A DNA stretch of 64,000 nt, taken from Kiritimatiellia bacterium (GTDB taxonomy: Bacteria > Verrucomicrobiota > Kiritimatiellia > RFP12 > UBA1067). Below the pieces are notes generated by a model. That model searched no databases and was not told where the DNA came from. It saw nothing but the letters and a program-made list of their open reading frames with translations. The stretch is from positions 32,126-96,125 of the forward strand of contig JAFWKK010000071.1 in the NCBI GenBank assembly GCA_017514235.1, read 5' to 3'. This document shows, in pieces, positions 3,492-30,935 of this stretch. How positions within the stretch are numbered: the stretch's first letter is position 1; each line of letters begins with the position of its first letter. The translations under genes were made by a program, and so were the position numbers.

Positions 3492-4055
3492 ATGAAGAAG
3501 TTGATCACTCTCGCCCTGGCCGCGGCAGCAGTCGCGCCCGTCTTTGCACAGGAGCCGGAAGCTGCGGAGGACGCAGTTCCCGTGCGCGAGGAACGCAGCC
3601 GTAGCAGCGATGTCTGGCCGGCGTTCATCGCCATCTGCGAATTCCCTGACGTCCCCGACGTCATCGGCCTTCGCCTGACGCTTCCGTTCTCGACGCGCCA
3701 GGAGAACATAACCGGCATCGACCTCGGCCTGTGGGGGCGGTCGCTCTACTTCGAGGGCATCCAGGTGAACCTGCTGCGCAACGACGTCAAAGACGATGCG
3801 GCCGGCGTGCAGGTTGGCCTCTACAACTCAGTGGGTGGCGGCGATCTGCTTGGCATTCAGGCAGGTCTCTGGAACGAGGCTAACTCCATGCGCGGTGCGC
3901 AGGTCGGCATCATTAACGTCTCTGGCGAGACCGAGGGCTTCCAGGTCGGTCTCATCAACCGGACCGAGACGATGCATGGCTACCAGGTCGGCCTTATCAA
4001 CATAATCCGCGACGCCGAGCTCCAGTTCTTCCCGATCGTCAACATCGGGTTCTGA
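3492..4055 (+). CDS. secreted LA_2272-type surface repeat protein
   Basis: 187 residues. It begins with a clear signal peptide (MKKLITLALAAAAVAPVFA, cleavage after A19). The mature part ends with a series of short repeats of the type G-x-Q-V/A-G-L-x-N: GVQVGLYNS, GIQAGLWNE, GAQVGIINV, GFQVGLINR and GYQVGLINI. This resembles the LA_2272 family surface repeat proteins seen in Leptospira and many gut bacteria, whose molecular role is unknown. The repeats suggest a beta-rich outer-membrane or surface protein. It has its own promoter and AGGAG site. The next gene begins 3 bases after its stop. Confidence 0.75.
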   Translation: MKKLITLALAAAAVAPVFAQEPEAAEDAVPVREERSRSSDVWPAFIAICEFPDVPDVIGLRLTLPFSTRQENITGIDLGLWGRSLYFEGIQVNLLRNDVKDDAAGVQVGLYNSVGGGDLLGIQAGLWNEANSMRGAQVGIINVSGETEGFQVGLINRTETMHGYQVGLINIIRDAELQFFPIVNIGF

Positions 4056-21134: not shown

Positions 21135-21142
21135 TCGGAGTG

Positions 21143-21973
21143 ATGTCACTAATTGAGAGAATTGTCGAACTGATTCGCGAGACGAGTTCGTCACTGCCGG
21201 AGGACGTGTTGCGAGCATTGCGTGGCGCGTTGCGCCGCGAACGCGCCGGATCGTCCGCCTCGGTCGTCCTCGGGACGATCCTCGACAACTGCGCCCTGGC
21301 GGCGAAGCGTGGCGTTCCCCTCTGCCAGGACACTGGCATGCTGGTCTTTTTCGTGCACGAGTCCCTGCGGCGGCGCGTTACGCCGGTCTTGCTGGGACGC
21401 GCCGTGGCACTTGCCACGGAACGCGGTTACCTGCGCCGCAACACCATCGATCCGGTGTCGGGCAAGTCATTCGACGACAACTGCGCCGAAGGCGTTCCCG
21501 CAGTCCGCTATTGCGACCGACCCGGGGTGACGCTGATAATGAAGGGCGGCGGAAGCGAGAACATGTCGCGGCAGTATTCGCTGCCCGACTCGTCTCTCGG
21601 CGCAGGGCGCGACCTCGAAGGCGTGAGGCGTTGTCTTCTGGATGCGGTGGTGCGGGCGCAGGGATACGGTTGCGCGCCTGGCGTGCTGGGCGTCTGCATC
21701 GGCGGTGACCGTGCTGCCGGCTACGAGGTCGCCAAGGAGCAGCTGCTGCGTCCGCTGGACGCCGCGGGCGCCTCGGAAGACCCGAGGCTCCGTGCGTTGG
21801 AGCGGCGCGTGCTGCGCGAGGCGAATTCGCTTGGCATAGGCCCGATGGGGCTCGGCGGCGGCACCACGCTGCTCGGCGTGCGCGTCGCGGCGCGTCCGCG
21901 CGTGCCGGCAAGCTTCTTCGTTACCGTCGCCTACATGTGCTGGGCGGCCCGCCGTAGGACCATGATGCCATGA
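21143..21973 (+). CDS. class I (iron-sulfur) fumarate hydratase, alpha subunit
   Basis: 276 residues from ATG 21143 (277 from GTG 21140). The three cysteines expected to bind the [4Fe-4S] cluster are seen in LCQDTGMLVFF, DDNCAEGVPAVRY and GVLGVCIGGDRAAG. GGGSENMSRQYSLPDSS is another family block. With the next gene it forms the two-subunit type of FumA/tartrate dehydratase, hydrating fumarate to malate in the TCA cycle; tartrate dehydratase activity cannot be excluded. ATGA overlap with the beta subunit at 21970-21973 implies coupled translation. Confidence 0.92.
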   Translation: MSLIERIVELIRETSSSLPEDVLRALRGALRRERAGSSASVVLGTILDNCALAAKRGVPLCQDTGMLVFFVHESLRRRVTPVLLGRAVALATERGYLRRNTIDPVSGKSFDDNCAEGVPAVRYCDRPGVTLIMKGGGSENMSRQYSLPDSSLGAGRDLEGVRRCLLDAVVRAQGYGCAPGVLGVCIGGDRAAGYEVAKEQLLRPLDAAGASEDPRLRALERRVLREANSLGIGPMGLGGGTTLLGVRVAARPRVPASFFVTVAYMCWAARRRTMMP

Positions 21974-22587
21974 AGCGGTTGACTTTTCCTTTTGACGAGC
22001 AAACGGTACGCGGCCTTCGGGCCGGCGATGCCGTGTCCATCACGGGGCGCATCTACACCGGACGCGACAGGTTCCACAAGTGGTTCGCCGACGGGAGGCC
22101 GATTCCGGTATGCTTCCGCGACGGCGCCCTCTACCACTGCGGCCCGGTAGTCGTGCGCGACGAGGCTGCGGCCGGCGGCTGGCGCGTTGTGGCGGCGGGA
22201 CCCACGACGAGCGTGAGGGAGAACCCATACGAACCGGACTTCATTGCCGCGACCGGCGTTCGCATAATCATCGGCAAGGGCGGCATGGACGAGCGGACGC
22301 TTGCGGCGATGCGCGAGCACGGTTGCGTCTATGTCCAGGCGGTCGGCGGCGCCGGAGCCCTCTATGCCGCGTCGGTAGCGCGCGTGGCAGGCGTTTCGCT
22401 CGTCTCCGAGTTCGGAGCGGCCGAGGCCGTATGGCATTTCGACGTCGCGGACTTCCGTGGAGTCGTTGCGATGGACGCGCACGGACGTTCGCTCTTTGCG
22501 GACGTGGCCGCCGTTTCCGAGCGCCGTCTTGCGTCGTCCCGCCGGAAATGCTATACTGACGGCATCAGGTCATCTGCGGGGAGGTAA
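21970..22587 (+). CDS. class I fumarate hydratase, beta subunit
   Basis: 205 residues. It matches the C-terminal swivelling domain of class I fumarases: LRAGDAVSITGRIYTGRDRFH, ATGVRIIIGKGGMDERT and a late VWHFDVADFRGVVAMDAHG. It completes the active site formed by the alpha subunit. The last 60 bases of the gene contain the promoter of the downstream YGGP-repeat/radical SAM operon. Confidence 0.92.
   Translation: MKRLTFPFDEQTVRGLRAGDAVSITGRIYTGRDRFHKWFADGRPIPVCFRDGALYHCGPVVVRDEAAAGGWRVVAAGPTTSVRENPYEPDFIAATGVRIIIGKGGMDERTLAAMREHGCVYVQAVGGAGALYAASVARVAGVSLVSEFGAAEAVWHFDVADFRGVVAMDAHGRSLFADVAAVSERRLASSRRKCYTDGIRSSAGR
22529..22557 (+). promoter_or_regulatory. extended -10 promoter of the YGGP-repeat/radical SAM/surface-polymer operon
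   Basis: TTGCGT at 22529-22534, a 17-base spacer and TGCTATACT ending at 22557 (TATACT at 22552-22557). It lies within the 3' end of the fumarate hydratase beta gene. The leader holds GGGGAGG at 22578-22584 before the ATG at 22595. No further strong promoter is seen on this strand until 33 kb. Confidence 0.7.
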
Positions 22588-22594
22588 TGCGCTG

Positions 22595-23617
22595 ATGAAG
22601 AAGATAAAGGATCTCATGAACGCCGGCGACTTCCGGGCGGCGGCTGAGCGTTTACGGGCGCGGCTCACGCTTTCGCCGGGCGACGACGAGGCCAAGCTGA
22701 TGCTTGGCACCTGTCTCCATCTGCTTGGCGACGACGAGGCATTCATGCGCATCGACGACGAGCTTTCGCAGTCGCCGACGGCGAGGACGCTTCCGGCGTG
22801 GCCGAAGTTCCATGCGCTCCGGGCCGCCGCTTGCGGAGGTGCGCTGCTGCTTGCCGGGGTGTTGTGCGACATACAGGCCGAGCCGATCCTTGTACATGAC
22901 TACGGCGGGCCGTTTTTCGACAAGTCGCAGCTGGTCGTGCCGGTTCCTGCCGCTTCCGACGGAAAGTATTCCGGGTATGTGCGCCTGACGTGGCAGCCTG
23001 TCGCGGGCGCCGCGTTCTACAGGGTGCGCCGCGCGACGTCGAACTGCTACGCGAAGTCGAAGGTTGTCGCCAAGGTGACCGGCACGACATACAAGGACAA
23101 GAGTCCGGCGGTCCGGCCGCGCAAGAAGTACTGGTACTGGATCGTTCCGTACTCGAAGCCGGGGCAGGGCAAGAAGGACGCGTCCAAGTCAGACAGCGGC
23201 TACGCCAAGCAACTCTTCAAGGTGAAAGCGCCCGACGTAATGGAGGTCGGAAGCGTATGGAAGTTCCGCGTTAGCGGAAACAAGGGCCAGAAGCTGAAGG
23301 CGTCCGACTGCAAGTGGAGCATAGTGTCCGGCGCCGACTGCGCCTCTGTCTCTCGCGGCGGGAAGCTGACGGCCAAGAATGGCGGCACCGTTGTCGTTTC
23401 CGCCACCTACAACGGCGTTACGGTGCGGTCGACGATACAGATATCCCCGATGGTAGCTCCGCTGTATGGCGGTCCGTCGTATCCGATATTCGTCAAGTAC
23501 GCAGGCCCGTTGTTTCCGATACTGATGAAGTACGGCGGCCCGCCTGCGGCGTCGCTTCAGAAGGTTTCGTCGGACAACGTGGAGATGACGGTCATTTCGC
23601 CGACGGCGGACGAGTGA
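22595..23617 (+). CDS. membrane-anchored multi-domain protein with YGGP repeats, candidate radical SAM substrate
   Basis: 340 residues from ATG 22595, ten bases after GGGGAGG. Layout: a TPR-like helical N-terminus (1-60), one transmembrane helix (about 74-92), a first YGGP motif at 97-108, a fibronectin III-like domain (about 115-195, with VRLTWQPVAGAAFYRVRRAT), a BIG2-like domain (about 214-284) and three more YGGP motifs in tandem at 285-318, then an acidic tail. Motif copies are PILVHDYGGPFF, PMVAPLYGGPSY, PIFVKYAGPLF and PILMKYGGPPA. The radical SAM/SPASM gene starts inside its stop codon (TGATG). I infer that the motif is the modification site; this is not shown. No named family is assigned. 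Confidence 0.7.
   Translation: MKKIKDLMNAGDFRAAAERLRARLTLSPGDDEAKLMLGTCLHLLGDDEAFMRIDDELSQSPTARTLPAWPKFHALRAAACGGALLLAGVLCDIQAEPILVHDYGGPFFDKSQLVVPVPAASDGKYSGYVRLTWQPVAGAAFYRVRRATSNCYAKSKVVAKVTGTTYKDKSPAVRPRKKYWYWIVPYSKPGQGKKDASKSDSGYAKQLFKVKAPDVMEVGSVWKFRVSGNKGQKLKASDCKWSIVSGADCASVSRGGKLTAKNGGTVVVSATYNGVTVRSTIQISPMVAPLYGGPSYPIFVKYAGPLFPILMKYGGPPAASLQKVSSDNVEMTVISPTADE
22883..22918 (+). repeat. YGGP motif copy 1 (coding)
   Basis: Encodes PILVHDYGGPFF, residues 97-108 of the membrane-anchored protein. It lies directly after the transmembrane helix and is separated from the other three copies by the two Ig-like domains. Confidence 0.6.
23447..23548 (+). repeat. YGGP motif copies 2-4 in tandem (coding)
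   Basis: Encodes residues 285-318: PMVAPLYGGPSY, PIFVKYAGPLF and PILMKYGGPPA, with a period of 12 then 11 residues. The shared core is P-[IM]-x-x-(x)-x-Y-[GA]-G-P. The array is near the C-terminus, as is usual for core peptides of modified precursors. Confidence 0.65.
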
Positions 23618-24663
23618 TGACGTGTCCGCCAGAGCTGCGCGCGGCGGTGGTGGAGGTTACGAACCGCTGCAACCTCCGATGTCCGTGCTGCGCGTCGGCT
23701 TCTGGGAAGGCCAGACCCGACGAGATGGGCCTTGACGAGGTGAAGGGCGTCGTGCGGGACCTGGCAGCGCTGGGGTGCCGCGATTTCACGATGCTGGGCG
23801 GAGAGTTCCTTCTGCGTCCCGACTGGTACGACATAGCTTTCGAGGCGAAGGCCTCCGGAATGGAGCTTCAGCTGATTACGAACGGGCTTCTCGTTACGCC
23901 TGAAGTCCGGCGGCAGTTCAGGTCGCTTGATCCTCAGACCGTCTGCGTCAGCATCGACGGCGCTACGCCCGAAAGCTACCTGGCCGCACGTGGCGTTGAC
24001 GGCTTCGGAAAGTGCAGAAAGCTGCTCGACGAACTGGTGGATGACGGCTTTCGCCAGGTCAGCGCGATCACGACGTTCAACGCCAAGAACATTGGCGACT
24101 TCGACGCCTTCGCTGAGATGTTCCGCGGCACTGACATCGTCTGGCAGGTGCAGATGGCGCACAAGGGCGGCGAACGCTTCCCTGACGAGTTGCTGATGAC
24201 CCGCGAGCAGTACGCCGTGTTCGTGGAGAAGGCCACCCATTGGCTTTACGACCGCCATGGAGAGCTGAAGATCCTTGTGATGGACGATTTCGGATACTTT
24301 CCGCTCACGCCAAAGCTGCGGTTCCTGTGCCAGCGGTGGAACGGGTGTCCCGCCGGCCGGTATGTCATAGGCATTCGCGCGAACGGGGACGTGCTGCCGT
24401 GCCTGTCGCTCGGAAGCGAATACGTGGAGGCAAACCTGAGGAAACGGCCGCTGGCCGAGATATGGAACGACCCGGATTCTTTTCCTCGTTTCCGGCGCAA
24501 GTCCGGTAAGCTTACAGGGCGGTGCGCGAAGTGCCCGATGGCCGAGCGATGCAAGGCGGGTTGCACGGCGATGGCGGTCTCCCAGACCGGCACGATGACC
24601 GAGACTCCGTTCTGCATACGCCAGCTGGAGACCGAACGGATCGTCAGGGAGGTGATCGGGTGA
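23617..24663 (+). CDS. radical SAM/SPASM protein, probable peptide or protein maturase
   Basis: 348 residues. The radical SAM motif C-x3-C-x2-C is TNRCNLRCPCC (Cys18, 22, 25), followed by the glycine-rich MLGGEFLLRP and SIDGATPESY blocks. The C-terminus is a full seven-cysteine SPASM domain: NGCPAG, VLPCLS, then GRCAKCPMAERCKAGC (exact C-x2-C-x5-C-x3-C) and TPFCIRQ. Seven-cysteine SPASM domains hold two auxiliary [4Fe-4S] clusters and occur in maturases of ribosomal peptides and in anaerobic sulfatase-type enzymes. No PqqD/RRE-like domain is evident. Its ATG overlaps the stop of the YGGP-repeat gene, which strongly suggests that protein as substrate. A glycosyltransferase gene starts at the GTGA overlap. 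Confidence 0.9.
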   Translation: MTCPPELRAAVVEVTNRCNLRCPCCASASGKARPDEMGLDEVKGVVRDLAALGCRDFTMLGGEFLLRPDWYDIAFEAKASGMELQLITNGLLVTPEVRRQFRSLDPQTVCVSIDGATPESYLAARGVDGFGKCRKLLDELVDDGFRQVSAITTFNAKNIGDFDAFAEMFRGTDIVWQVQMAHKGGERFPDELLMTREQYAVFVEKATHWLYDRHGELKILVMDDFGYFPLTPKLRFLCQRWNGCPAGRYVIGIRANGDVLPCLSLGSEYVEANLRKRPLAEIWNDPDSFPRFRRKSGKLTGRCAKCPMAERCKAGCTAMAVSQTGTMTETPFCIRQLETERIVREVIG

Positions 24664-25586
24664 AGCCGGTTTCCGTCGTCATTCCGGTCTACGGACGGGA
24701 CGATGCGCTCGAGACCGTGCCGTTCCTGATGCGCCAGCCGTATGCTGACGCGCTGAGGATTGTCGTTGTCGACAACGGGAACGCCGCGGAACGTTCGGCG
24801 CGGCTGAAGGAGCTGGCGTCCGCCATAGTCGAGGTGGTCTCGTTCCCGGAGAACCGCGGCGGCTCGGCGGCGTACATTGCGGGAATGGAGACGGCTAGGC
24901 GAAGGTTCTCCGAATGCCGTTGCGTCTGGCTGCTTGACGACGATGCGAAGCCTAACGGGGACACGCTTCCGGCGCTCGTGGAGGCGATGGATCGGCTTGT
25001 CTCAGGGAATCCGCGCACGGCGAGCGTCGGGTCGGCGGTCGTGAGCGCAAGCGATCCGGAACGCATCGTCGAATGCGGGGCGTCGTTCTGTCCGCTGCTG
25101 GGCCATGCGTTTTCCAAGCTCGCCGGGCGGCGGCTGGCGGACGTAGGAAGCCGCATCCTTCGCGTTGACTATGCTGCGGCGTGTTCGCTTCTTGTCAATG
25201 TCGCGGCGGTGGAGGCTTGCGGCTTCTGGGAGGACGTGTTCATTCACTTCGACGACATCGAGTGGGGGGTTCGCGCTACGAAGGCCGGCTGGAGCAACTA
25301 CGCCACTACGGCATCGACCGTGATTCACCCCGAATTCGACCAGGGGAAGGCGGGCGCGTGGATATGCTACTTTGACGCGCGCAACATGTACTGGCTGGCG
25401 GCGAAGTACGGTGGAGCGGCAGCCGTTGCCTGCGTCAGGGCGAAGAACGCGCTCAAGAGCCTGAACGATCGCCGTTCGGGAAGACTGGCGCGCGCCGCAG
25501 CCCGCAGCCTCGCATGGCGCGACTTCCGCGCCGGCAGCCGCCGGACGCGCAAGGAGGTGGAGGAGGCGTTGGAGAGGCATGGATAG
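24660..25586 (+). CDS. GT2 family glycosyltransferase
   Basis: 308 residues from a GTG at 24660 that overlaps the radical SAM stop (GTGA). The protein starts KPVSVVIPVYGRDD, the usual GT-A opening. LLDDDAKPNGDTL is the metal/nucleotide-sugar site, and FIHFDDIEWGVRATKAGW resembles the catalytic region of GlfT/rhamnosyltransferase-like GT2 enzymes. The end is basic and possibly membrane-associated. It would add a sugar to a polymer or to a protein; acceptor and donor are unknown. The last 8 bases overlap the next gene. Confidence 0.9.
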   Translation: MKPVSVVIPVYGRDDALETVPFLMRQPYADALRIVVVDNGNAAERSARLKELASAIVEVVSFPENRGGSAAYIAGMETARRRFSECRCVWLLDDDAKPNGDTLPALVEAMDRLVSGNPRTASVGSAVVSASDPERIVECGASFCPLLGHAFSKLAGRRLADVGSRILRVDYAAACSLLVNVAAVEACGFWEDVFIHFDDIEWGVRATKAGWSNYATTASTVIHPEFDQGKAGAWICYFDARNMYWLAAKYGGAAAVACVRAKNALKSLNDRRSGRLARAAARSLAWRDFRAGSRRTRKEVEEALERHG

Positions 25587-26607
25587 CGGCCCCATAGATT
25601 TCGTCGTTCCGTGGGTTGACGGGAGCGATCCAGCTTGGCGCGCCGAGCGCGAGCGCTGGGCAGCAAAGGAGCCGTGCGCCCCGCATCTCGCCAAGTGGAA
25701 CGACGGCGAGCAGCGCTATCGGGACTGGGGGCTTCTCAAGTACTGGTTCCGCGGCGTCGAAAAGTTCGCGCCATGGGTGAACAGGATACATTTCATCACC
25801 TGGGGGCATCTGCCCCCGTGGCTTGACGTCGGCAATCCGAAGCTCCATGTCGTCAGGCACGAAGACTACATTCCGCACGAGTACCTGCCGACGTTCAGCT
25901 CGCGCTGCATCGAACTTAACGTTCATCGCATCAATGGGCTTTCTGAGCGGTTCGTCTATTTCAACGATGACATGTTCCTGACAGCACCGGTCGGGCCATC
26001 GGACTTCTTTCGCAAGGGGTTGCCTTGCGATGCCGCGATAATAAGCCCGATTTACCTGAAGCAGAACGGGGTGCGGGCCGAAATCAACGCGATGTACGCG
26101 ATCAATGCGCATTTCAGGAAGGCGGAGGTCATAAGGAGGAATCCCCTCAAATGGTTTTCGCCTCGCTACGGAACGGCGCTTGTCAGGACCTTCACCCAGC
26201 TTCCATACGGGCTTTTCACGGGCTTCTACGTCCACCACGGACCGGTGTCGTACCTGAAGTCGACGTTCAGCGAGGTGTGGAGCGCCGAGCCCGAGACGCT
26301 GGCGCGGGCGTGCGCTCACCGCTTCCGCAACGATGCTGACGTCAACCAGTGGATCATGCAGTACTGGCAGTACTGCTCGGGGACGTTCTCGCCGCGAAGT
26401 CCGAAGTTCGGCTCCGTCTACGAAGGATCCTGCGAATTGGAGGGCGCCGTCGCGGACATCTCCGGCGGCAGGCGCCGTGCCGTGTGCTGGAACGACGCGG
26501 TCGACGTGGGAAACTTTGAAGCGTGCCGGGAGCAGGTTGACATGGCGTTCAACCGGCTGTTGCCGAATCCCTCAAGCTTTGAAAGGAAAGACAGTGAAAA
26601 GATTTGA
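25579..26607 (+). CDS. Stealth family sugar-phosphate transferase
   Basis: 342 residues. Conserved Stealth regions are visible: CR1 as IDFVVPWVDGSDPAW, CR2 as RDWGLLKYWFRGVEKFAPWV followed by IHFITWGHLPPWL, and the CR3/CR4 part with FVYFNDDMFL. Stealth proteins transfer hexose-1-phosphate from nucleotide sugars, building phosphodiester-linked capsules in bacteria; the human GlcNAc-1-phosphotransferase is a relative. The product is probably a phosphate-linked sugar on a cell-surface polymer. It overlaps the GT2 gene by 8 bases and the TagF-like gene by 14 bases. Confidence 0.9.
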   Translation: MDSGPIDFVVPWVDGSDPAWRAERERWAAKEPCAPHLAKWNDGEQRYRDWGLLKYWFRGVEKFAPWVNRIHFITWGHLPPWLDVGNPKLHVVRHEDYIPHEYLPTFSSRCIELNVHRINGLSERFVYFNDDMFLTAPVGPSDFFRKGLPCDAAIISPIYLKQNGVRAEINAMYAINAHFRKAEVIRRNPLKWFSPRYGTALVRTFTQLPYGLFTGFYVHHGPVSYLKSTFSEVWSAEPETLARACAHRFRNDADVNQWIMQYWQYCSGTFSPRSPKFGSVYEGSCELEGAVADISGGRRRAVCWNDAVDVGNFEACREQVDMAFNRLLPNPSSFERKDSEKI

Positions 26608-28273
26608 TGGCGCAACATGCATCAGAATCGATTTCATCGACATTGCCGACGGCAAGGTTTCGGTGACGGGCGAATTTTTCGCGCCCACGGACGATGCCGC
26701 GTCGCAGTCAGTGTTCTCGCAGCTTGTGCTGACAGACGGGGACTCTGCCGAATATACGCTTAAGGCGTTGTTCCACCGTGAGAAGAATGCGCATATCGGC
26801 GCCTTGAAGCAGCCGTGCAAATTGACTGAATTTGCGTGCGAAGTTCCGCTCAACGGGCGTCTTTTGCTTCGTTGGAAGATAAACGGACGAATCATTCCAT
26901 GGCGCAGGTGCATACATGGGACGTTCTCCCCTTTGACCGAACGCTTGCGGTCCTCGTATGCCTGTTCCGGGCAATGGATTCTGCGGTGGCGCGGAGATGC
27001 GCTTGAGATAACGCCGTATTCGTTCGCAAGACACGTGTTTTGCGAACTGGCGCATGACTTGAATCTGCTTTTAAAGATGTCCTTCCCGGCGTGGCGCGCC
27101 CTGGCGTTCAGGGCGATTTGCGCCGTGGACCGCATGTTCTCCTCCAGGCCGCTGTGGCTGTTCTCCGACAGGGTTAACAAGGCCGATGACAACGCAAGGG
27201 CCATGTTCGAGTACGCATGCGGACTCCCGGAAGGCGGCAGACATGCCGACTTCGCCTTTGCCCTTGAAAAGGGATGCGAGGATTGGGATGAAATGCGGAA
27301 GGTGGGGCCTGTCGTAAACCTTCTGGGGCTTAAGTACAAGATTATGTTCGTTCGGGCGGACTTTGTGATTTCTGCCTATCGGACCAAGGCGCAGCGAATG
27401 CCGTTTTCCGATTCGTCCGCCGCATATTGCAAGAGCCTGGTCAACCATCCCAAGTTCATTTTCCTCAGGCATGGTATCAGCAAGGATGACATGTCGCACG
27501 ACGTCGGCCGCCCGCAAGTCAACGCAAGGATCATGGTTTCCGCTGCGCCGCGCGAACGCGATTCAATATTGGACGGCTGCTACATGTACACGGCACGCGA
27601 GGTCAAGCTGCTCGGCATGCCGCGCTACGACAAGCTGTATGACGCCGGCCAGAAGACCGTGACGTTCATGCCCACATGGCGCCGGTATCTTGTCGAGAAG
27701 ACGGATGCGTACAATCATGAACTGCTTGAGGAATTCAAGCAGTCCTCATATCTCAGGAACTACAAGGCCATATTCAACGACCGCAGGCTCATCGAGGCGT
27801 GCGAAAGGCTTGGATTCCGGCTGCGGCTGATGATGCACCCCAACATGACGTTCGCGATCAACGAGTTTTCCATCCCGTCGTGCTGGGAGATAATGCCGCC
27901 CGAGACGCGCTACCGGGACGTGTTCGCGACGTCTGGAATCGTAGTCACCGACTATTCGTCGGTATTCTTTGACGTGGCGTACCTGAAGAAGCCAATAGTG
28001 TTCTTCCATGCGGACAGGGACGAGTTCTTCGCGTTGCAGTACGACAAGGGCTATTTCAGCTACGAACGCGACGGATTCGGTGAGGTTGAGACGACCATCG
28101 AGGCAACCGTCTCCCGCATCATCGAGTACATGGAGAGCGGCTGCACTATGAAGCCCGAGTACCAGAAGCGCGTTGACGATTTCTTCGCCTTTACCGACAG
28201 GGACAACTGCAAGAGAGTCTACGAGGCGATCCTTGAGGCGGCGCGCGAAGACGGCATCGGCGTGACGGCGTAA
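26594..28273 (+). CDS. TagF-like CDP-glycerol glycerophosphotransferase domain protein
   Basis: 559 residues from a GTG at 26594 behind GAAAGGAAAG; an in-frame ATG at 26333 is deep inside the Stealth gene and is rejected. The first 170 residues are not recognised. The C-terminal half has the CDP-glycerol:polyglycerophosphate transferase pattern: HGISKDDMSH, LGMPRYDKL, FMPTWRRY, MMHPNM and VVTDYSSVFFDVAYLKKPIV. Family members polymerise or prime glycerol- or ribitol-phosphate chains on teichoic acids, and some act on capsules in Gram-negatives. Its codon use seems less GC-rich than its neighbours. Which polyol phosphate it uses is unknown. Confidence 0.87.
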   Translation: MKRFDGATCIRIDFIDIADGKVSVTGEFFAPTDDAASQSVFSQLVLTDGDSAEYTLKALFHREKNAHIGALKQPCKLTEFACEVPLNGRLLLRWKINGRIIPWRRCIHGTFSPLTERLRSSYACSGQWILRWRGDALEITPYSFARHVFCELAHDLNLLLKMSFPAWRALAFRAICAVDRMFSSRPLWLFSDRVNKADDNARAMFEYACGLPEGGRHADFAFALEKGCEDWDEMRKVGPVVNLLGLKYKIMFVRADFVISAYRTKAQRMPFSDSSAAYCKSLVNHPKFIFLRHGISKDDMSHDVGRPQVNARIMVSAAPRERDSILDGCYMYTAREVKLLGMPRYDKLYDAGQKTVTFMPTWRRYLVEKTDAYNHELLEEFKQSSYLRNYKAIFNDRRLIEACERLGFRLRLMMHPNMTFAINEFSIPSCWEIMPPETRYRDVFATSGIVVTDYSSVFFDVAYLKKPIVFFHADRDEFFALQYDKGYFSYERDGFGEVETTIEATVSRIIEYMESGCTMKPEYQKRVDDFFAFTDRDNCKRVYEAILEAAREDGIGVTA

Positions 28274-28296
28274 GAGATGGCGAACAGGCGCTTTGC

Positions 28297-29712
28297 ATGC
28301 TTTTCACGTCGATAGAGTTCCTGTTCCTGTTCCTGCCGGTGGCGCTGGCGGGGTATTTTCTGCTGCCGTTCCGCTATGGGCTGAAGAACCTGTGGCTGCT
28401 TGCCGCCAGCCTGCTGTTCTACGCCTGGGGAGAGCCGACGTTCGTCTTCGTCATGCTCGGCTCCATTGCGTTCAACTACCTGATGGCTCTCTTGATCGGT
28501 GCCGTCAGGGAGCGCAGGGGCGCAGTCAGGGCGGTGCTGACCGCAGCGATTGCCGGCAACCTGGCGGTGATCGGTCTCTGGAAGTACGCGAACTTCGTCA
28601 CGGCAACGCTGCGAGGATGGTTCCCGTCGCTGCATGGAGCGATACCACAGACCTCGTTCGTCCTGCCGATCGGCATATCGTTCTTCACGTTCCAGGCGAT
28701 GAGCTATGTGGTGGACGTCTTCCGGGGCTCCGTGAGGGTTCAGCGCAATCCGCTGAAACTCGCGCTTTACATCGCGCTCTTCCCGCAGCTGATTGCAGGC
28801 CCTATCGTGCGTTATTCGACCGTATGCGAGCAGATCGAGAGCCGCCATACGACGCTCGACATGTTCGCGCGCGGCGTTTTGCGTTTCCTGTACGGATTCA
28901 ACAAGAAGATGCTGCTCGCGAACCTGTTTGCCGCAGTGGCCGACAAGGCGTTCGGGATGTCCGATCCCGGCTGCGGCATGGCATGGCTGGGGGCGGCGTG
29001 CTACACGCTTCAGATATTCTTCGACTTCAGCGGCTATTCCGACATGGCGATCGGCCTCGGGCTTGTCTTTGGGTTTCGCTTCCTTGAAAACTTCGACTAT
29101 CCGTATGTCTCGAAGACGGTGACGGAGTTCTGGCGGCGCTGGCACATGTCGCTCGGCAGCTGGTTCCGCGACTACGTCTACTTTCCGCTCGGGGGCTCTC
29201 GCGTAGGCAAGTCGCGTCTCGTCCTGAACCTGGCGGTCGTCTGGACGCTGACGGGCGTTTGGCACGGGGCGAACTGGACGTTCATCCTCTGGGGTGCTCT
29301 ATACGGAGCGCTTATCACGGTCGAGAAGCTTGCGGACCTGCCGCGGCGTGTCGAGGCGAAGCCAGTTCTGCGTGCGATCTGCCAGCCGTTCACACTTTTG
29401 GCAGTTGTTCTCGGCTGGGTGCTTTTTCGCGCGACGGACCTGCCGGCGGCAGCCGCCTACCTGAAGGCCATGTTCAGCTTTGGCGCTGGAGCCGTTCCCG
29501 GCCTTGCAGCGCATCAGTTCGGCGAGATCGCGACCGTCATGTGCTTCGGGCTGCTGCTGTCCACGCCGCTAGTACGCGACCTGCGTCGGCGTCTTGACGG
29601 TTCGGCCGTTGCAGTTGCGGTCGACGGGATCGTTCAGCTGGCGCTTTTCGCATGCGGTGTCTCGTACCTTGTGATCTCCGCATACAATCCGTTCATCTAT
29701 TTCAATTTCTGA
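28297..29712 (+). CDS. MBOAT family O-acyltransferase (AlgI-like)
   Basis: 471 residues, many membrane helices. The N-terminus MLFTSIEFLFLFLPVALAGY and NLWLLAASLLFYAWGEP are typical of AlgI/DltB-type proteins. The MBOAT core is present: FWRRWHMSLGSWFRDYVYFP and the catalytic histidine in LTGVWHGANWTFILWG. AlgI-like proteins pass acetyl groups across the inner membrane for polysaccharide O-acetylation. The next gene supplies the AlgJ/AlgX partner, two bases downstream. Confidence 0.93.
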   Translation: MLFTSIEFLFLFLPVALAGYFLLPFRYGLKNLWLLAASLLFYAWGEPTFVFVMLGSIAFNYLMALLIGAVRERRGAVRAVLTAAIAGNLAVIGLWKYANFVTATLRGWFPSLHGAIPQTSFVLPIGISFFTFQAMSYVVDVFRGSVRVQRNPLKLALYIALFPQLIAGPIVRYSTVCEQIESRHTTLDMFARGVLRFLYGFNKKMLLANLFAAVADKAFGMSDPGCGMAWLGAACYTLQIFFDFSGYSDMAIGLGLVFGFRFLENFDYPYVSKTVTEFWRRWHMSLGSWFRDYVYFPLGGSRVGKSRLVLNLAVVWTLTGVWHGANWTFILWGALYGALITVEKLADLPRRVEAKPVLRAICQPFTLLAVVLGWVLFRATDLPAAAAYLKAMFSFGAGAVPGLAAHQFGEIATVMCFGLLLSTPLVRDLRRRLDGSAVAVAVDGIVQLALFACGVSYLVISAYNPFIYFNF

Positions 29713-29714
29713 CG

Positions 29715-30935
29715 ATGGGAAAGGCAGGTTTCGCAAGGCTGGTCGTTTCGGGCGCTTTCCTCGCGCTCTCAGCGTCTTTTGCCGTGCCGACGGCAGGGAC
29801 GTTTGCAACGGCCTTCAGGAAGAAAGGCAAGGCTTCGGTCCAGCGCCGCATCGCTTCCGCGCGCAAGGCCGCCGAGTCGAGGTTTCCGCAGCGCCTGACC
29901 TTCGTGACGTTGAACGGGCTGTTCGTACGGCTTGTCGGGCAGCATTCCTGCAACGGTGTCGTGAAGACGAAGCCTCACGGGATCCTCCTGCAGCCACATG
30001 CCAATTTGGTCAAGACCGAGAAGGCTGCCGGGCGGATGCGTAGGTTCTCCGACTTTTGCGAGCGGCATGGCGCGAAATTCCTCTACGTGCAGTTGCCGAG
30101 GAAGCTCGACGTCTCTAACCGCATCCTGCCTGCCGGAGTTGTCGAGCGTGCCAATGACAATGTCCGCCGGATGCTAGGGTCGATTGCGGAGGCAGGGGTT
30201 GCGCATGTCGACGTGCGTGCAGACTTCGCGGCCACGCCTGACGACGTGGCGCGAAACTTCTACCGCACCGACCACCATTGGCGCAACGACGCGGCGTTCC
30301 GCATGGCCGGGCGGCTGGCGGCGGAGATCGCCGTGCGCTGCGCCGCGCCAGAAGCCGACGCGCACCGTGCGGCCGAGCTGCTTTCGCCGGACGCCTGGAC
30401 GCGCGAGGTGCACCCCTGCTGTTTTCTCGGCAGCCTCGGACGCCGCACGGGTCCGCTCTTCGCCGGGCTGGACGACCTCGCTGTACTGCGCCCGCGTTTT
30501 GCGACGCGGATGTCAATTAGCATTCCGTCGAAGCGCATATCCCTGTCCGGAACGTTCGAAGACACTAACATGCGCCGCGCCGACGAGGCGCTGGCAGGGT
30601 CGAAGTCGTTCGTTACGGATGCCTATTCGGCCCTTTACGTAGGCGGAATATACCCGCTTGTCGTGCATGAGAACCGGAACGCACCGCTTCGCAAGCGCGT
30701 GCTTCTCATAGGCGACAGCTTTGCGCGCCCGGTGGAGGCGTTTTTGTCGGTGGCAGTGCGTAGGCTTGACGTCGTCGACCCGCGGCGGACGGCACGGAAC
30801 TTCAGCATTGCAGGATACGTGCGGCAGACGAAGCCGGACATCGTGATTCAGATGATCAATCCGAGTTCGCTGGGCGTTGACAAGATGAAAGGTCCGAAGA
30901 CCGGTCGCGCCGCCATGTTCGAATACGGCCTGTAG
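29715..30935 (+). CDS. AlgJ/AlgX-like acetyltransferase-associated protein (SGNH fold)
   Basis: 406 residues from ATG 29715, two bases after the MBOAT stop. An N-terminal signal or signal-anchor (ARLVVSGAFLALSASFAV) targets it to the periplasm. The signature RTDHHWRNDAAF is the D-x-H-H-W block of AlgX/AlgJ proteins, and LLIGDSFARPVEAFLS is the catalytic serine region (G-D-S). It likely takes acetyl from the MBOAT partner and attaches it to the exported polymer. This is the last rightward gene of the operon and converges with the GT2-TupA fusion gene. Confidence 0.88.
   Translation: MGKAGFARLVVSGAFLALSASFAVPTAGTFATAFRKKGKASVQRRIASARKAAESRFPQRLTFVTLNGLFVRLVGQHSCNGVVKTKPHGILLQPHANLVKTEKAAGRMRRFSDFCERHGAKFLYVQLPRKLDVSNRILPAGVVERANDNVRRMLGSIAEAGVAHVDVRADFAATPDDVARNFYRTDHHWRNDAAFRMAGRLAAEIAVRCAAPEADAHRAAELLSPDAWTREVHPCCFLGSLGRRTGPLFAGLDDLAVLRPRFATRMSISIPSKRISLSGTFEDTNMRRADEALAGSKSFVTDAYSALYVGGIYPLVVHENRNAPLRKRVLLIGDSFARPVEAFLSVAVRRLDVVDPRRTARNFSIAGYVRQTKPDIVIQMINPSSLGVDKMKGPKTGRAAMFEYGL

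Follow-up and report, generated by a model that had tools for sequence, protein, structure and literature searches.

A stretch of 64,000 nucleotides (the window) from the metagenome-assembled genome (MAG) of a Kiritimatiellia bacterium (GCA_017514235.1, contig JAFWKK010000071.1, positions 32,126 to 96,125) encodes a repeat protein and, in an overlapping gene, a radical S-adenosylmethionine (SAM) enzyme with a SPASM domain, here called the maturase. Comparison of genomes indicates that the pairing of the two is real, and the repeat protein is very probably modified in some way at a tyrosine motif that recurs in its tail. The kind of modification is a more tentative matter. With confidence just short of even, we favor a splicease-like enzyme that would act on the tyrosine sites before export, probably by excising tyramine, the two genes forming a cassette for an exported protein. 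The host MAG comprises 3.96 Mb in 82 contigs and is 92% complete.

The repeat protein, the putative substrate (P0001; 340 amino acids), is encoded at positions 22595..23617 of the window, on the + strand like all features given here. Residues 1 to 76 (22595..22822) form a tetratricopeptide repeat (TPR)-like domain, a putative leader that is kept in an alignment of 15 partner rows; the match of TPR_16 to residues 3 to 50 was weak (E value, 4.2e-5; 24.3 bits) and below the cut-off of 32.7. The repeat protein had no family match to a leader of the Nif11 or nitrile hydratase type. A hydrophobic segment follows, A77 to C91 (22823..22867), which in the alignment, judged by eye, ends near the lipobox cysteine of relatives and through which the protein would be exported and anchored in the membrane. 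The motif copies are PILVHDYGGP (from P97, with Y103; 22883..22912), PMVAPLYGGP (from P285, with Y291; 23447..23476), PIFVKYAGP (from P297, with Y302; 23483..23509), and PILMKYGGP (from P308, with Y313; 23516..23542). The first lies directly past the hydrophobic segment, and the other three are at the C terminus; a weak match to Big_2, below its cut-off, covers residues 237 to 274 (E value, 0.021). A preliminary description of this locus had reported four copies of Y[GA]GP, and four are indeed present, whereas 20,000 shuffles of the same protein gave 0.018 copies on average and never more than 3.

The maturase (348 amino acids; 23617..24663) begins at the A of TGATG (23617), inside the stop codon of the repeat protein gene, and matches the Pfam families Radical_SAM (E value, 1.9e-21) and SPASM (3.5e-11). 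Its CxxxCxxC motif (C18, C22, and C25; 23668..23691) and the seven cysteines of its SPASM region (C244, C262, C303, C306, C312, C316, and C333; 24346..24615) were invariant in all 19 aligned sequences, and both the overlapping start and the set of cysteines were as first described. CxxxCxxC together with a full SPASM domain is also the arrangement of PlpX-type spliceases. Among the NCBIfam matches listed (25 of 75), the maturase was under the cut-off for every model, with the best score, 136.3 bits, for the mycofactocin MftC model (TIGR03962; cut-off, 265); no anaerobic sulfatase-maturase model was among them, sulfatase activation not having been specifically searched.

The claim that the enzyme and the repeat protein belong together was borne out. 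In the host's family (115 genomes), the maturase gave 25 matches at an E value of 1e-20: the host's own, five full-length relatives with 61 to 98% identity, a fragment at a contig end (G026; our handles for genomes begin with G and those for loci with L), and 18 other enzymes with approximately 27 to 31% identity. Residues 1 to 106 of the repeat protein, which include the first motif copy, matched the same 7 genomes, of 112 in the family. The two genes are adjacent in the six family genomes in which the contigs permit this to be seen, with the partner upstream of the maturase in G000, G059, G077, and G091 and downstream in G034 and G039; in G026, the maturase fragment and the partner are each at contig ends. 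Within the host genome, the maturase query gave a single match at an E value of 1e-3, and five further matches to the repeat protein at an E value of 10 were all weak and confined to parts of the tail. A scan of 387 genomes of the phylum found the maturase in 4 and a profile of the partner's N-terminal domain in 5, those 4 among them; in G692, the partner is unlinked to the maturase.

A wider scan of genome contigs, from which the best 80 loci were kept, yielded 19 close loci (L046 to L064), whose maturases are 43 to 98% identical to that of the window, and 61 more distant radical SAM loci, the next of which has 31% identity. The hosts of the close loci are Kiritimatiellae (including L046, from goat ileum, with 98% identity), other rumen MAGs, Myxococcota/Deltaproteobacteria, and Desulfuromonadaceae. 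The N-terminal profile found a partner next to or near the maturase at 15 of the 19 close loci and at none of the 61 distant ones; 7 of those 15 loci had supplied sequences for building it, and the other 8 (L051 to L058) were found by the profile. When the 13 genomes that hold L051 to L064 were searched in full, the profile was detected in 12 at an E value of 1e-3, the matches at or below 35 bits resembling ordinary TPR proteins. These genomes included a second partner in G121, two partner lipoproteins unlinked to the maturase in G127 (the genome of L064), and one partner cut by a contig end in G123 (the genome of L059). In other collections, 23 pattern matches in viral contigs included no relative, all 18 plasmid records had less than 60% identity (7 regions were examined), and the 136 genomes of the order to which the Desulfuromonadaceae belong yielded only the 3 already known, which gave no fresh test of the motif. 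In the phylum of G115, 11 of 282 genomes had matches at an E value of 1e-70, of which 3 were known family genomes, 3 had the tandem sister cassette, and 5 were others.

The partners share a layout of a TPR-like domain of approximately 75 to 95 residues, a hydrophobic segment that ends in a lipobox-like cysteine in 10 of the 15 aligned rows (judged by eye), and a variable tail. Their lengths range from approximately 180 to 2,100 residues, with widely varying C-terminal domains, the longest tails containing Listeria-Bacteroides repeats and Ig-like domains. A single residue, a glycine, is invariant in the N-terminal alignment, and the element seen to be common to the tails is a tyrosine followed by a small residue (+1). 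The window tail has DYGGP, LYGGP, KYAGP, and KYGGP; G059 has the identical four, G077 has KYGGP and LYGGP, and G508 and G623 have LYAGP. Tails of other relatives have LYGG, LYGA, LYGV, and KYGA (G039), LYGA (G091), LYGI (G034), repeats of KYAAP and KYGAP with LYGV (L061), KYGV and also KYRV (L062), MKYGARP (KYGA) and MKYGIRR (KYGI) in the two unlinked partners of G127, LKYAAP, PKYGVG, and AKYAVG (G692), and AYAGP and VYGGP (G540). In L051 to L056 and L058, the tails have H[RK]YS[GA]G, L058 additionally having VKYSGG, and the second partner of G121 has HRYSGG.

Strict Y[GA]GP was seen only within the phylum of the host (G000, G059, G077, G508, G623, and G540). The pattern [KRLHD]Y[GAS][GA] was present in 17 of 21 tails, whereas shuffling gave 1.3 on average and at most 5 in 2,000 shuffles; for [KRLD]Y[GAS], the count was 20 of 21, compared with 5.1 on average and at most 12 after shuffling. 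The N-terminal profiles stop short of the tail, and among the 13 untruncated partners found by profile only (those of L051 to L058, the second of G121, the two of G127, and those of G692 and G540), tyrosine followed by Gly, Ala, or Ser was present in 12 tails, L057 being the miss. The first proposal was that the tyrosine, or the glycine or proline, of each YGGP repeat is the modified residue. The tyrosine is the conserved element, but YGGP has to be replaced by the more general [K/R/L/D]-Y-[G/A/S]. A finding that homologous maturases mostly lack such a neighbor would have counted against the proposal; for the partner protein this was not the case, as 15 of the 19 close loci have it, but most of these partners carry YG, YA, or YS instead of YGGP.

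A second SPASM enzyme is encoded directly upstream of the maturase at 7 of the 19 loci (L051 to L055, L058, and L059) and sits between the maturase and the partner in 6 of those 7. All 6 have H[RK]YS[GA]G in the tail, and loci with the maturase seen alone have YG or YA tails or, in L057, no motif. L056, with HKYSGG, has a stretch of suitable size for a second enzyme, in which no intact frame was confirmed.

The place of the maturase among radical SAM enzymes points to splicease-type chemistry. From 79 sequences gathered, 63 were placed in a first tree, and 48 plus 8 references (56 rows) were placed in a second; distant and long-branch rows were omitted, and 20 of the 23 family maturases were included (L046, L056, and L058 were absent). 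In the 56-row tree, rooted at the midpoint, the maturase family formed one group (support, 100/99), with a similar picture in the first tree, and joined, at 100/96, a group (94/91) that holds nif11-class maturase 3 (nif11-3, TIGR04103), the enzymes with the GDL motif, and a tandem pair from Myxococcota. MftC and other enzymes fell outside this joint group, and the second enzymes formed one group of their own (100/100). A loop that reads MDDFGYFP in the maturase family reads NNIGYYGP or NNVGYYGP in the nif11-3 and GDL sequences. The nif11-3 enzymes of the sister group are that of Nostoc (C057) and that of G775, with 677 of the 725 bits of the cut-off. IPR026482 presumably corresponds to TIGR04103, which would make PlpX a nif11-3 enzyme. 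The assignment of PlpX to IPR026482 is given in PMC11002830.

Several sister-group enzymes have precursors with X-Y-G or X-Y-A sites beside them. A Nif11-leader peptide next to the Nostoc nif11-3 enzyme ends in IALYGLPPELF. In G775, the radical SAM gene just under the nif11-3 cut-off adjoins a frame of 334 amino acids with ten tandem P[ML]YGV (L180, 1426-3746). Tandem SPASM radical SAM genes in Myxococcota (L170, L171, and L172, in G196, G236, and G240) are accompanied by short (D/K/L)YGL..NL peptides (..DYGLVRRANL, ..KYGLVSRANL, and ..LYGLACRANL) with the motif near the C terminus, in some in two copies; the one such peptide scanned had no NCBIfam match. DUF1843 peptides adjoining GDL-type or unnamed maturases (L204, 3281-3736; L208, 3150-3863), from Azospirillum and Aureibacter, have PYG, LYA, or MYA close to the start in 4 of 5 cases, as if they were part of the same X-Y-[G/A] theme. 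On a plasmid of Agathobacter rectalis, a small unannotated open reading frame (ORF) with ..FGPVMYGTGVRM (MYGTG) lies just upstream of the radical SAM gene (L206, ~3698-3910). PlpXY excises tyramine at XYG, with natural sites MYG and LYG (PMC10533398; PMC11002830), and spliceotide precursors may carry several splice sites (PMC10373908). The preliminary description did not recognize the window system as a described class of ribosomally synthesized and post-translationally modified peptides (RiPPs); that was too strong, because the spliceotides, whose products are termed protease inhibitors (PMC11117315; PMC10373908), have X-Y-G sites and are already known as a class (PMC10533398; PMC11002830).

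By analogy, the window enzyme would most likely carry out the same reaction as PlpXY, or a close variant of it, on a chain not yet exported. In the proposed mechanism, the repeat protein would be the substrate of the cytoplasmic SPASM radical SAM enzyme, with its TPR-like N-terminal domain probably serving as the guide, and the tyrosine of every [L/K/D]-Y-[G/A] site would be modified ahead of export over the inner membrane. Export through the hydrophobic or lipobox segment would then leave the N-terminal domain separated or anchored and the modified tail displayed. A broader proposal, which we hold with somewhat less confidence, is a protein splicing of surface proteins in which a portable leader (TPR-like domain plus lipobox or signal) would bring the Tyr-[G/A/S] sites of extracytoplasmic proteins that are not otherwise related to one enzyme, with a second enzyme for H-[R/K]-Y-S-[G/A]-G, so that covalently reactive alpha-ketoamides or another new tyrosine-derived group would be displayed on the cell surface. 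In the Myxococcota/Desulfuromonadaceae version, the sites of the second enzyme possibly undergo chemistry not yet described.

A number of observations count against splicease-type chemistry in the window system. The maturase scored 123.6 bits with nif11-3 (cut-off, 725), and no match to PF05402 (PqqD type) was found in its own 92% complete genome at an E value of 1, where a truncated RiPP recognition element (RRE) could evade the model; PlpX, for its part, works with PlpY, a truncated RRE. The +1 residue departs from XYG at several sites: one window copy and the LYAGP of G508 and G623 have Ala there, L051 to L056 and L058 have Ser, and the tail of L057 has RYVV and lacks the motif. The tail motif classes were defined after the tails had been inspected, and in the whole-genome search the motif was read in profile matches above 35 bits. 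LYG also occurs (as LYGTC, ..LLYGTC..) within the TPR-like domain of several Kiritimatiellae relatives, where the window has LGTC and where we read it as a probable TPR position; XYG alone is therefore a weak sign. No nearby X-Y-G peptide was found at the sister-group loci L162, L164, L166, and L066, and neither an acidic low-complexity ORF with RYG at L163 nor a far 42-amino-acid ORF with RYG at L065 was convincing; a convincing X-Y-G peptide was likewise not found at L205 of Rhizobium. The maturases of L059, L060, L063, and L064 have no adjoining partner, L059 and L060 being near contig ends and L063 and L064 not; no partner was found anywhere in G124, the genome of L060. Conversely, G540 has the N-terminal domain with YAGP and YGGP (L193, 5801-6610), and no maturase was found in this 92% complete MAG. 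Finally, what the sequences show is the pairing, the conserved N-terminal domain, the tyrosine motif, the cofactor cysteines of the enzyme, and its sister position to a group with splicease-type enzymes; the occurrence of the modification, the atoms removed, the order relative to export, and a role at the cell surface are what we infer from these patterns.

The best-surviving alternative, possible though doubtful, is that the same pair carries out another tyrosine-centered reaction, such as an oxidation, a change to the backbone (decarboxylative or otherwise), or a bond from tyrosine to the preceding Lys, Arg, Leu, or Asp. The tyrosine with its small +1 residue is the sole element seen to be common to the tails, Ala and Ser at +1 deviate from XYG, and the enzyme of the best-scoring, though sub-cut-off, NCBIfam model, MftC, decarboxylates Tyr and couples it to Val (PMC8326336). 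However, MftC is outside the tree group, whereas the sister group holds splicease-type enzymes, and the residue preceding the tyrosine varies, so that one fixed cross-link cannot fit all sites.

Cross-linking or epimerization was the view first put forward, and thioether formation (as in sactipeptides or ranthipeptides), three-residue cyclophane formation, and epimerization are known reactions of RiPP radical SAM enzymes (PMC8326336). Such chemistry at the motif is nevertheless improbable, and less likely than that of a splicease, because Gly, the usual +1 and +2 residue of the window copies, has no side chain, the short tails are nearly without Cys past the lipobox position, and the sister splicease-type enzymes have X-Y-G precursors. 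Core cysteines of the sactipeptide or ranthipeptide kind were absent from the 17 short tails, in which Cys was present only as the first residue (the lipobox or segment end, in 15 of 17) and, in L053, once three residues farther on. Cyclophane formation needs a beta carbon on the partner residue, which in Y-G-G would be Gly. Gly cannot be epimerized either, and the neighboring residues vary.

There is a slimmer chance that the pair is real but that the enzyme targets some other protein or the N-terminal domain, with a motif that serves only in surface anchoring or folding. The position of the partner does vary (downstream in G034 and G039, unlinked in G127 and G692), the C-terminal domains differ widely, and G540 retains the motif with no maturase found, but the tyrosine motif is the sole conserved part seen in the tails and the N-terminal alignment has a glycine as its one invariant residue. 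That the genes are chance neighbors and the repeat protein an unrelated surface protein, for which nothing beyond the usual prior was found, is very improbable in view of the identical sets of 7 genomes, the partner at 15 of 19 loci, and the coupled start and stop codons.

The surroundings of the cassette were inspected by eye. Directly upstream in the window (21140-22587) are two genes that resemble those for the two subunits, alpha and beta, of a fumarate hydratase; downstream (24660-30935), glycosyltransferase, Stealth-like, CDP-glycerol-transferase-like, MBOAT-like, and SGNH-like genes form a surface polysaccharide region. Glycosyltransferase genes also lie near the maturase of G039, and dTDP-sugar genes are present in G091, a context that fits a surface role and is no proof of one. 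Beyond the maturase and the partner, no conserved gene was seen around the cassette in 10 loci. In G623, the intact maturase is followed by another copy with an internal shortening and by a duplicated neighboring gene (L178, 2039-2470). L060 and L063, the latter in the same genome as L054, each have a close maturase with no nearby partner domain, in a similar gene context (the L060 start is near a contig end); it is possible that these maturases have another substrate.

If splicease-type chemistry is correct for the window family, ribosomal beta-amino acids would be extended to cell-surface proteins, and simple two-gene tools to install ketoamides in proteins would become available, along with a direct test of the +1 residues (Gly, Ala, and Ser) that the reaction tolerates. 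The recurrent X-Y-[G/A] in neighboring groups also gives a concrete starting point for work on several precursor families whose function is not known. Some of these findings may already be covered by Scott et al. (Chem 8, 2659, 2022), whose title speaks of splicing for both "peptides and proteins."

Several known systems resemble that of the window in part. The TVGG-repeat precursor of TvgB (PMC9062424) likewise offers multiple sites for one radical SAM enzyme in a repeat motif, but TvgB is described as modifying Val to cyclopropylglycine, without Tyr. In a literature search for the exact motif strings, none of the 10 titles listed concerned radical SAM enzymes. The TIGR04133 (rSAM_w_lipo) radical SAM gene presumably also has a lipoprotein partner, but the window maturase reached only 71.9 of the 425 bits of the cut-off. 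MftC has the highest general score and is directed at tyrosine, but it is outside the tree group and its Val-Tyr target is C-terminal in a short peptide, whereas the window sites are internal; a TIGR03962 score above the cut-off combined with MftA/MftB neighbors was not found. The GDL-motif maturase (TIGR03913), within the sister group, is paired with DUF1843 peptides with PYG, LYA, or MYA, but these are short, lack an export segment (judged by eye), and belong to a separate enzyme group; no paper on its chemistry was evident from titles in the literature search.

The closest likeness is to the splicease PlpXY of Pleurocapsa, which has a SPASM radical SAM enzyme, X-Y-G sites, and a sister position in the tree. 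By the family test, the window system is nonetheless placed outside the named splicease family, because its score is far under the cut-off, its leader is different, no PqqD domain was found, and Ala or Ser follows some of the tyrosines. The published splicease sites are XYG (PMC10533398; PMC11002830), whereas three of the four window copies are XYG and one is XYA, and relatives have YG, YA, or YS. Its substrate has a TPR-like leader, not one of the Nif11/nitrile hydratase type, and the substrates of its family are large and probably exported. The Ala or Ser at +1, the lack of a detected helper, and the new leader are departures in which a new reaction may hide. In the published accounts, spliceases act on precursors that have dedicated leaders, and they do so together with a helper protein; the sister family, in uncultured gut bacteria and Myxococcota, seems to act with no helper that could be detected, on proteins that are large and probably exported and whose modular leader would also bear the export segment.

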